From positions 1 through 38,085 of IMG/VR virus record IMGVR_UViG_3300027843_000003: a DNA stretch of 38,085 nucleotides. The stretch is one strand, 5' to 3'. This DNA comes from a virus. The translations under genes were made by a program, and so were the position numbers. Position 1 is the stretch's first letter. Every line of letters starts with the position of its first letter. The notes beneath the pieces were generated by a model. It was not told the origin of the DNA. It ran no database searches and saw only the letters and a list, made by a program, of their open reading frames with translations. This document shows, in pieces, positions 9,942 to 12,762 of the stretch.

Positions 9942-10175
9942 ATGAACGATGAAAATGGTAAAGTACTAAGGGTTGGTGATGTCATTTATATTCACCAAAC
10001 GGTGAACGGGCAAAATTTATTTGTTGTATTGAATTTAAACCCGCTTGATATTAGATATGAATATGACAGATTGCGAGAATACGAATACGACAAAGAAGAA
10101 CTTTTAGCCATAACATTAGGAGAAGGGTTTGAAATAATTGGTAATATCTTCCGTAACCACGAATTAATAAAATGA
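9942..10175 (+). CDS. Half-length YopX-like protein (77 aa)
   Basis: The start NENGKVLRVGDVI-like segment and the end EIIGNIFRNHELIK line up with the C-terminal half of the YopX protein encoded at 16610, which has NNGSMIFEGDIC and ends EIIGNIHDNPELIK. The usual YopX N-terminal segment (FRGKR...GEWVEG) is missing, so this is a short or truncated family member. YopX proteins are widespread in phages and their function is unknown. The stop overlaps the next start by four bases. Confidence 0.65.
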   Translation: MNDENGKVLRVGDVIYIHQTVNGQNLFVVLNLNPLDIRYEYDRLREYEYDKEELLAITLGEGFEIIGNIFRNHELIK

Positions 10176-10486
10176 CCACTAACCAAGTCCTCCACACCCT
10201 CACCGAACTAACCTGCATCCACTACTCCACCACCCCGCTACAACTCAAGTACGCAAGCAGAAAGCAGCCATACGCAGAAGCACGGCAGGCTATTTGGCTA
10301 ATGGCGAAGAATATCCTTTGGCGGGACGTTCAGCACATCGAACTAGCCGAGATGTTCAACCGTCAGCGGACTACCGTAGTTAATGGAATCAAGGCGATTA
10401 AGTGCCACTATGATACTTGCGGGGATTTTCGTAGGTTTGTGGATGAAACGGAGAAAGAAGTTATGCGGTTGATTAAAACGGAATAA
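10172..10486 (+). CDS. Stand-alone DnaA domain IV-like DNA-binding protein
   Basis: Residues about 29-78 contain SRKQPYAEARQAIWLMAKN, then IELAEMFNRQRTTVVNGIKAIK, matching the DnaA C-terminal domain: basic loop, long helix and the helix-turn-helix with the TTV signature that contacts DnaA boxes. The AAA+ part of DnaA is absent. Such stand-alone domains occur in phages and may recognise an origin or block host initiation. The gene is the last of the recombination operon, before promoter P2. The assignment of the domain is solid; the role is inferred. Confidence 0.75.
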   Translation: MTTNQVLHTLTELTCIHYSTTPLQLKYASRKQPYAEARQAIWLMAKNILWRDVQHIELAEMFNRQRTTVVNGIKAIKCHYDTCGDFRRFVDETEKEVMRLIKTE

Positions 10487-10532
10487 GATGCTGAATAACA
10501 TATGATTTGATATAAAATAATCATTATATATT

Positions 10533-10562
10533 TTGTTATACTGAAATATAAATGTATATTTG
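10533..10562 (+). promoter_or_regulatory. Bacteroidota-type promoter P2 of the Mom operon
   Basis: TTG at 10533-10535 and TAtaTTTG at 10555-10562 have the same 19-base spacing as P1. The stretch TTGTTATACTGAAATAT and the following TTTGTCCTAT are identical in both promoters in the same register. P2 lies 29 bases before the first gene of the operon at 10591. The surrounding sequence (10487-10590) is AT-rich and otherwise empty. Confidence 0.75.
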
Positions 10563-10590
10563 TCCTATTGAATATTACAAATAAATACTT

Positions 10591-10779
10591 ATGGCTATGA
10601 AACTTATAATTAATTTATCAAATTCAGAAGTAAAAGGAATTAAAGAATATTTGAAAAATGAATTTGGAGAGAATAATGATAAAAAAGCTATACAACTATT
10701 TATACAGGGAATAGTTTCTGGAAATATCAACGCACCACAAGAATGTGTATCTAATTATATTAATAAACATGAAAACTAA
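10591..10779 (+). CDS. Hypothetical protein, first gene of Mom operon (62 aa)
   Basis: ATG at 10591; a second ATG at 10597 would lose two residues. The product is helical, Lys/Glu/Asn-rich, with KLIINLSNSEVKGIKEYLK at the start, which resembles the strand-helix opening of ribbon-helix-helix proteins. Codon use is more AT-rich than in neighbouring operons. It has the same position before mom as the translational activator com in phage Mu, but no Com-like zinc motif is present (one Cys only). Function unknown. Confidence 0.6.
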   Translation: MAMKLIINLSNSEVKGIKEYLKNEFGENNDKKAIQLFIQGIVSGNINAPQECVSNYINKHEN

Positions 10780-11038
10780 TATGACAAAAGAGCAACGCTC
10801 TAATTTGTTGAAGGCATTCAATCAAAGGAAAAGGACAACCATTGCCAACACTCTTGCAGGGTCAACGCTTGATAACTTATTGAATGAGATATATGGAACA
10901 TCTTATTCTGAAATAGGTGAATATTCAGATCAACTTATAGACCCTTTAGACTATGGAGAAGGAACTAAAGAATTATCATTTAAAATTTTTTTAAAACTTA
11001 TGGATTCTATAAATGGGGATGATTTAAATTATGAATGA
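10769..11038 (+). CDS. Hypothetical protein, second gene of Mom operon (89 aa)
   Basis: The ATG at 10769 overlaps the end of the first gene by 11 bases; an upstream GTG (10745) is less likely. The N-terminal half is basic (KEQRSNLLKAFNQRKRTT), the C-terminal half acidic with DPLDYGEGTKEL. The charge split suggests a small protein that binds nucleic acid or a partner, but no family was recognised. It overlaps the Mom-like gene by eight bases, so the two are probably translated together. Confidence 0.6.
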   Translation: MKTNMTKEQRSNLLKAFNQRKRTTIANTLAGSTLDNLLNEIYGTSYSEIGEYSDQLIDPLDYGEGTKELSFKIFLKLMDSINGDDLNYE

Positions 11039-11843
11039 TAATATAATTTATAATATAGGGGTAGCCTATCAAAAAACCGTAAGAGATCAGCGTGCCGTTA
11101 CTGATTTACAAAACCTATTTGGAAATTACTGGAATGACTTAGATTTAGATTTAAAAAATGCTACCGTTAAAGAAATAAGCCTATCGACTGCATCTAAAAT
11201 GATTATCGAATATGAGTGGCTTGGGTGTATGCCTGCTGTTAATTTTTATTCATATGGGATATTCTTTAATGATATTTGCGGAGGTGTAGTCGTTTTCGGG
11301 CAAGAGTATATAGAAAACTTGGGAAGGTGGGATAAATACGATTATACTGGTAAAATTATTCTATTGAGCCGTGGCGTATGCTTACATTGGACTCCAAAGA
11401 ATACAAATAGTAAGTTAATTATGGCTGCTATTAAAATGCTTCCAGCAAAATACAAAATCGTTACATGCACAACCGACCATCTGGCTGGAGAAATTGGAAC
11501 TATATATCAATCTTGCAATTTTTACTATGTAGGGAGCATGAGAGATTCAAACCCAAATATACCTAGTAGTAAGAATGGGGATAGAGATGGATGGATAATA
11601 AATGGAAAATTATATGGATCAAGGGCTTTAAGGCAAAAATATGGCGATACGAAAATGGAAACACTTTTAAAATATAATAGGTCTGTTGAAAAGATAAAAC
11701 AAAATAGTAAGCACCGATATTTTTATTTTAGAGGCAATAAGCGTGAGGTGTCTTATTATAAATCAAAAATTAATGATTTAATACTACCATACCCAAAAAG
11801 GGAAATAAACCAGATGAACCGAAGCAGTCCACCAATTACATAG
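11031..11843 (+). CDS. Mom-like DNA-modification protein (GNAT fold)
   Basis: The order of motifs matches the Mom family: YEWLGCMP (61-68), a strand pair YGIFF...GGVVVFG (75-90), LSRGVCLHWTPKNTNSKLI (112-130), TCTTDHLAGE (145-154) with Asp149, and GTIYQSCNFYYVG (156-168), plus a C-terminal part ending in PYPKR. Mu Mom converts adenine in DNA to a carbamoylmethyl derivative and shields DNA from restriction enzymes. Members of the wider family keep this GNAT-like fold, but the chemical group added here cannot be told from sequence. The gene is the last of the P2 operon and is followed by a candidate terminator. Base composition is AT-richer than the flanking replication genes, which may reflect a separate origin. 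Confidence 0.8.
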   Translation: MNDNIIYNIGVAYQKTVRDQRAVTDLQNLFGNYWNDLDLDLKNATVKEISLSTASKMIIEYEWLGCMPAVNFYSYGIFFNDICGGVVVFGQEYIENLGRWDKYDYTGKIILLSRGVCLHWTPKNTNSKLIMAAIKMLPAKYKIVTCTTDHLAGEIGTIYQSCNFYYVGSMRDSNPNIPSSKNGDRDGWIINGKLYGSRALRQKYGDTKMETLLKYNRSVEKIKQNSKHRYFYFRGNKREVSYYKSKINDLILPYPKREINQMNRSSPPIT

Positions 11844-11891
11844 TGGGACTGACCGATGGCGAATGGACAAGACCAAAGCGTTGGTCGAAAT

Positions 11892-11956
11892 CACCCCACA
11901 GACGAACCAATCACTTCTAATGCTTTTGATGATCGGTGAATGTGGTGGTGGTTTTT
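11892..11956 (+). terminator. Candidate terminator after the Mom operon
   Basis: CACCCCACA (11892-11900) pairs with TGTGGTGGTG (11941-11950) with one bulged T, and five T follow at 11952-11956. The 40-base loop is long, so this is less certain than the other terminators in the window. Confidence 0.45.
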
Positions 11957-11961
11957 AAATT

Positions 11962-12006
11962 ATTCCTGCAAATGTTTGCGGAATGAGAAAAGAATGGTTA
12001 TATTTG
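11962..12006 (+). promoter_or_regulatory. Promoter with inverted repeat over the -33 region
   Basis: TTG at 11976-11978 and TAtaTTTG at 11999-12006 fit the Bacteroidota promoter pattern (20-base spacer). The -33 element lies within an inverted repeat, ATTCC-t-GCAAA (11962-11972) against TTTGC-GGAAT (11975-11984). A repressor bound there would block the promoter; the Cro-like protein encoded directly downstream is the natural candidate. Confidence 0.6.
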
Positions 12007-12052
12007 TTGGGTCGATTAGTTCGGCTATTTTTTGAACCACTAATTTACAAAA

Positions 12053-12223
12053 ATGTTTAGACTAAAATTAGAACGATTAATGAATGAGTTTGGAGTGAAG
12101 CAAGAGGCTTTAATCGAAACGATAAATTCAACCCGTGTAACTTTTGGAAAGAAGATGAAAGATAATACTTTCACAGATTCAGAAGTTAGGTTGATACTTG
12201 ATAAGTATGGCAAATTGCTATAA
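12053..12223 (+). CDS. Small Cro-like helix-turn-helix protein (56 aa)
   Basis: ATG at 12053 after an A-rich leader; stop at 12221-12223. The segment LMNEFGVKQEALIETINSTRVTFGKKM (residues about 9-35, in two helices) reads as an XRE/Cro-type helix-turn-helix, and the end SEVRLILDKYGKLL as the closing helix. Such proteins in Bacteroidota phages act as small repressors. It is the first gene after a promoter that carries an inverted repeat, so autoregulation is likely (inferred). Confidence 0.7.
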   Translation: MFRLKLERLMNEFGVKQEALIETINSTRVTFGKKMKDNTFTDSEVRLILDKYGKLL

Positions 12224-12258
12224 TTATTTTTGGCTAATTTAATTTACAAAAAAGTATA

Positions 12259-12762
12259 ATGGAAAAGAAAATTGAAAAAAATGGATGTGTTTATTTCCTT
12301 AAGCACAACAATCTATCCCCTATAAAAATAGGGTTTAGTGCATCTGCGACCCCTTCAAAGAGGTTGGTTCAGTTAAAGGTTTATGCACCATATGGAGCCG
12401 AGGTAGTTGGATTCATAAGGTCTGATAATGCGATTGAATTAGAAAAGATTCTACATTTGATGTTTTCAGATAAAAGGATGGAGGGCGAATGGTTTAATAT
12501 TACAAAGGAAGATGTTGATAATATAATATCTATTCATACAAAAAAAGAAGAAAGCTCAATAAGTCGTTCCGTTGTAGCTAAAAATGATATTCCAACATCC
12601 GAAAAGGTACTGATTGAGTTAAGGAGAAAAAGCCTTACACGTGACGAACTAGCCGAAAAGCTTTCTGTAAATCTTATGACTATCAACAGGCGTATTGATT
12701 CAAACGCATGGAAGCCGATGGAGGTTTATTTTATGAAGCATAAACTTGGCTTTGATTTGTAG
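12259..12762 (+). CDS. T5orf172 / GIY-YIG-like domain fused to helix-turn-helix
   Basis: Residues about 10-90 read VYFLKH...IKIGFS, then R-rich and Leu-rich helix (KRLVQLKVYAPYGAEVVG), ELEKILHLMF and EGEWFNI, which is the T5orf172 (Mug113) branch of the GIY-YIG nuclease superfamily. Residues about 120-150 (RRKSLTRDELAEKLSVNLMTINRRI, in two helices) form a helix-turn-helix. The protein could be a site-directed nuclease or a DNA-binding regulator; its catalytic state is not certain. It sits between the Cro-like gene and the replication genes. Confidence 0.75.
   Translation: MEKKIEKNGCVYFLKHNNLSPIKIGFSASATPSKRLVQLKVYAPYGAEVVGFIRSDNAIELEKILHLMFSDKRMEGEWFNITKEDVDNIISIHTKKEESSISRSVVAKNDIPTSEKVLIELRRKSLTRDELAEKLSVNLMTINRRIDSNAWKPMEVYFMKHKLGFDL

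Follow-up and report, generated by a model that had tools for sequence, protein, structure and literature searches.

A Mom-family DNA modification protein and its putatively inserted anti-restriction cassette in a phage with a likely Bacteroidota host

RESULTS

Overview of the mom locus

Virus record IMGVR_UViG_3300027843_000003, whose full 38,085 bases we refer to as the window, encodes a 270-amino-acid (aa) protein that belongs to the Mom family of DNA modification proteins over its full length and is distant from Mu Mom. This assignment is strongly supported, since profile, structural, and conserved catalytic-residue evidence agree. The gene very probably forms part of an inserted anti-restriction cassette whose main product, a Mom-family GNAT enzyme, most likely modifies adenine N6 in the phage's own DNA. 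The host is likely a member of the Bacteroidota, given that the terminases closest to that of the window come from Parabacteroides phages (~36% identity) and that promoter matches of the Bacteroidota type were found in the window. The features of the locus are as follows; L039 and L040 are fragments of related phages.

10172..10486, plus strand: conserved 104-aa gene, upstream edge of the variable site, with homologues in L039 and L040
10532..10562, plus strand: Bacteroidota-type promoter consensus (the window has one further match)
10591..10779, plus strand: 62-aa open reading frame (ORF) without known relatives
10769..11038, plus strand: 89-aa ORF (ATG at 10769, stop at 11038) overlapping the 62-aa gene and mom
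11031..11843, plus strand: Mom-family GNAT-fold DNA modification protein, 270 aa, identified by profile, structure, and conserved columns
11871..11955, plus strand: two-hairpin terminator-like element (stems 11871-11886 and 11887-11955, then a U-run)
11975..12006, plus strand: promoter consensus for the 56-aa Cro-like ORF, with a similar one ahead of the same gene in L039
12053..12223, plus strand: conserved 56-aa Cro-like ORF, downstream edge of the variable site, with a homologue in L039
15500..16153: N6/N4-type DNA methyltransferase with a DPPY motif

The 270-aa product is a Mom-family protein

An earlier note, made from the sequence alone, had assigned the 270-aa product to the Mom family on the basis of its ordered motifs, and these motifs (YEWLGCMP, HWTPKNTNSKLI, TDH with Asp149, and GTIYQSCNFYYVG) are all there. 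Profile searches recovered the family core as well, with scores far above chance for both Pfam PF25680 (Mom; 80.2 bits, curated cut-off of 27.1) and PHROG_1384 (Mom-like DNA modification protein; 97.3 bits). Mu Mom (PDB 8bv8) was retrieved from the 270-aa sequence by phmmer (E = 0.0011), and an alignment-based comparison with Mu Mom (E = 3.8e-9, 96% probability) was collinear to the C-terminal Tyr-Pro-Lys. The aligned proteins are only 23% identical.

The structural comparison that the note had proposed led to the same protein. The best PDB match of an AlphaFold2 model built from a 26-sequence alignment (pLDDT of 78, medium confidence) was 8bv8 (Foldseek E = 6.8e-11), which VIA-align superimposed with a Z of 16.1 over 184 aligned residues (rmsd of 3.9), whereas the best non-Mom acetyltransferase of the GNAT type reached a Z of 11.6. 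According to its PDB title, 8bv8 is the inactive mutant S124A, and phmmer sets its alanine opposite Ser127 of the window protein; wild-type Mu Mom has a serine at this position. Ser127, Arg114, Asp149, and Tyr159 of the window protein align with Ser124, Arg111, Asp149, and Tyr159 of Mu Mom. None of these four residues varies among the 39 compared proteins, Mu Mom included, nor do Gln160, Tyr230, or the terminal Tyr-Pro-Lys.

The two proteins thus share a GNAT fold, which is collinear over residues 41 to 256, as well as the catalytic serine, Arg, Asp, Tyr, and C-terminal Tyr-Pro-Lys, and each gene follows a small gene within a small operon. They differ in two segments that are additional in the window protein (A-[HY]-Q-[KR], N-terminal, and WDKYDYTG, internal) and in their genomic setting, as the window gene is set among replication-type genes, whereas Mu mom lies at the genome end. 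A candidate extension of mom by a -1 frameshift at C CCA AAA was rejected, as the open frame of ~40 residues is absent in relatives and runs into the two-hairpin element.

In Mu, the product of Mom in DNA is alpha-N-(9-beta-D-2'-deoxyribofuranosylpurin-6-yl)glycinamide (Swinton et al. 1983, as cited in PMC3874153). Since the family profile, the fold, and the catalytic serine, Arg, Asp, Tyr, and Tyr-Pro-Lys are kept, the window protein most likely modifies adenine at N6 with a group of the Mom type, which would protect the phage DNA; by the same features, its product may be identical to that of Mu Mom. GNAT folds serve many substrates and the identity to Mu Mom is low, so a Mom-fold acyltransferase that acts on a protein or a small molecule, or that transfers a different acyl group, has to be considered. 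We regard this as very unlikely, because the matching profile is specific to Mom, no other GNAT matches the model nearly as well as Mom does, the catalytic serine and the C-terminal Tyr-Pro-Lys do not vary, and a DNA methyltransferase occupies the same gap in a related phage (see below).

Mom relatives form a large clade and are mainly phage-borne in these data

Relatives of the window protein are encoded by 36 viral contigs, 32 of them at 55 to 73% identity and 4 at 27%, and a further 12 came from genome contigs. The N-terminal A-[HY]-Q-[KR] segment that is missing in Mu is common to the window clade. Mom-like proteins of sequenced phages, including Bacillus phage Riggi, Polaribacter phage P12002L, and Proteus and Listeria phages, belong to the same PHROG/Pfam family and can be aligned over ~80% of the length, although the best of them is only 32% identical to the window protein. 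In contrast to these proteins, the window clade was found, in the data examined, in uncultivated viral and metagenome contigs only. In a profile search of 395 genomes sampled within the phylum to which one Mom-bearing Bacteroidales genome belongs, four matched at E ≤ 0.001, two of which exceeded the curated cut-off; Mom is therefore mainly phage-borne in these data.

Several relatives have other architectures. Mom is fused to a GIY-YIG domain at L047:6948-8687, to an N-terminal region judged by eye to be HNH-like at L057:7251-8768, and to an N-terminal region of no assigned family at L050:1-1491 and L051:7059-8873. One viral contig carries tandem mom genes (L013:7944-8753 and L013:8737-9714), which between them represent the window clade and the 27%-identity clade. 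In jumbo phages, Mom has been reported in fusion with nuclease domains (PMC7824862); these Mom-endonuclease fusions share with the window protein the same Mom domain and the use of DNA modification in conflict, whereas the window protein is single-domain and lacks a nuclease. At 12259-12762, the window encodes a protein with a T5orf172/MUG113 (GIY-YIG-like) domain and a C-terminal helix-turn-helix-like part that resembles PADLOC candidate PDC-S57.

The N6/N4-type methyltransferase encoded in the window raises the question of whether Mom cooperates with it, for example, at shared sites or through methylation-dependent control of the kind that Dam exerts on Mu mom. In line with such cooperation, Mom shares one reading frame with an N6/N4 methyltransferase (PF01555) and a ParB-like region, the latter recognized by eye rather than by profile, in contigs from two Acidobacteria genome bins (L048:7995-9926 and L049:7920-9914). 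However, none of 14 further viral records with Mom, a set that includes many fragments, has a PF01555 match above cut-off, and L039 has a 65% identical methyltransferase without mom in the sequenced fragment. A general dependence of Mom on a methyltransferase was thus not seen in these 14 records, and cooperation in the window phage seems distinctly improbable. The window methyltransferase has an altered SAM-type motif, GGSFSS, in place of the LGSGSS of its L039 homologue.

The two small upstream genes are probably local companions of mom

The three ORFs of 62, 89, and 270 aa are present as the note had described, with ends that overlap one another in series. It had also read them as a separately promoted operon. 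A promoter match, TTTG-N19-TATATTTG, does lie 28 bp 5' of the 62-aa gene, but two such matches were found in the window where ~1.8 are expected by chance, so that the case for a promoter of its own derives mainly from position.

In Mu, the zinc-finger protein Com binds mom mRNA and switches on its translation (PMC6483171). No zinc-binding, Com-type protein was found upstream of and overlapping mom in the window: the 62-aa protein has one cysteine and the 89-aa protein none, whereas Mu Com has a cluster, and in this respect the window locus differs from that of Mu as the note had said. Its observation that one of the small proteins is split into basic and acidic parts also holds, for the 89-aa protein, which carries a net charge of +4 in its N-terminal half and -8 in its C-terminal half.

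The note went on to suggest that the two small genes could encode new regulators or substrate-specificity partners. As functional partners of Mom, they would either regulate expression in place of Com or act as substrate-specificity subunits, and they would be made together with Mom via the overlapping genes. The overlaps, which presumably couple translation, and the single promoter-like site ahead of them are consistent with this proposal. So is a single-sequence model of the 62-aa protein (pLDDT of 72.6), in which an extended stretch (residues 1 to 10) is followed by helices at 11-25, 31-42, and 48-61; it is vaguely ribbon-helix-helix-like, an unproven resemblance that could point to DNA binding, and Foldseek returned no significant fold match for it. 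However, neither gene recurs beside mom in any of 36 other mom loci, where mom stands alone or beside unrelated genes, and no convincing relatives of either protein were found in viral contigs or sequenced phages, nor of the 89-aa protein in the 395 genomes. Searches of Pfam, PHROGs, PADLOC, and NCBIfam gave no firm match for either. RNA structure at the mom start was likewise unremarkable, with a z-score of -0.45, a comparison of little power, as the Mu control gave only -0.28.

Two candidate matches were discarded. One small-gene match at E = 0.0055 fell inside a 460-aa frame. PHROG_37511 showed weak full-length similarity to the 89-aa protein (E = 0.0071), and a genome search with it matched no control, which leaves that search uninformative.

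Since these searches found no relatives of the small proteins and none of the 36 mom loci carries their genes, the regulator or partner proposal is unsupported, and we consider it unlikely. Doubtful to a greater degree is the idea that the two proteins constitute a module of a new type, distinct from Com, that governs the control or specificity of Mom and travels with it as an exchangeable anti-restriction cassette. Most likely, the 62- and 89-aa genes are local passengers or expression-tuning genes rather than conserved parts of the Mom mechanism; they may conceivably have a local role in the window phage alone.

The mom cassette occupies a variable site

The genes that flank the cassette are conserved in the related fragments. 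On the downstream side, window positions 12021 to 12256 share 79% DNA identity with L039, and the 56-aa Cro-like ORF is 89% identical over 44 matched residues. The two-hairpin element recurs with the same topology and with compensatory base changes at L039:621-691 and L040:3061-3131; it lies directly 3' of the upstream conserved gene in both fragments and 3' of mom in the window. When 2.9 million viral contigs were scanned for its pattern, the element came up only in these two fragments, which with the window makes three records; it has no family in Rfam.

The simplest reading of this arrangement is that the AT-rich mom cassette was inserted between the upstream conserved gene and the two-hairpin element. 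The cassette (10487-11843) has a GC content of 30.4%, against 40.3% for the whole window, and no non-overlapping segment of equal length is as low, although low GC by itself does not prove insertion. In L039, the gap between the same flanking genes is occupied by a C-5 cytosine DNA methyltransferase (PF00145, 125 bits). Because this gene stands where the window has the mom cassette, the gap looks like an exchange site for DNA modification genes in this phage group, a suggestion drawn from two related fragments (L039 and L040), of which only L039 has a modification gene there.

DISCUSSION

We propose that the phage gained the cassette as a unit between the conserved gene and the two-hairpin element, that its Mom-family enzyme would place a Mom-type group, glycinamide-like in Mu, on adenine N6 of phage DNA, and that DNA modified in this way would be poorly cut by host restriction enzymes. 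By identity, the enzyme itself is an ordinary member of the Mom family, with a divergent clade around it and a cassette that appears to be mobile; the insertion and exchange-site picture is what is new here.

The window protein extends the Mom family to a large, mostly uncultivated clade. This clade provides a second, well-diverged set of sequences, which fixes the residues that Mom cannot lose. The site, in turn, points to phages of one group apparently swapping different DNA modification genes.
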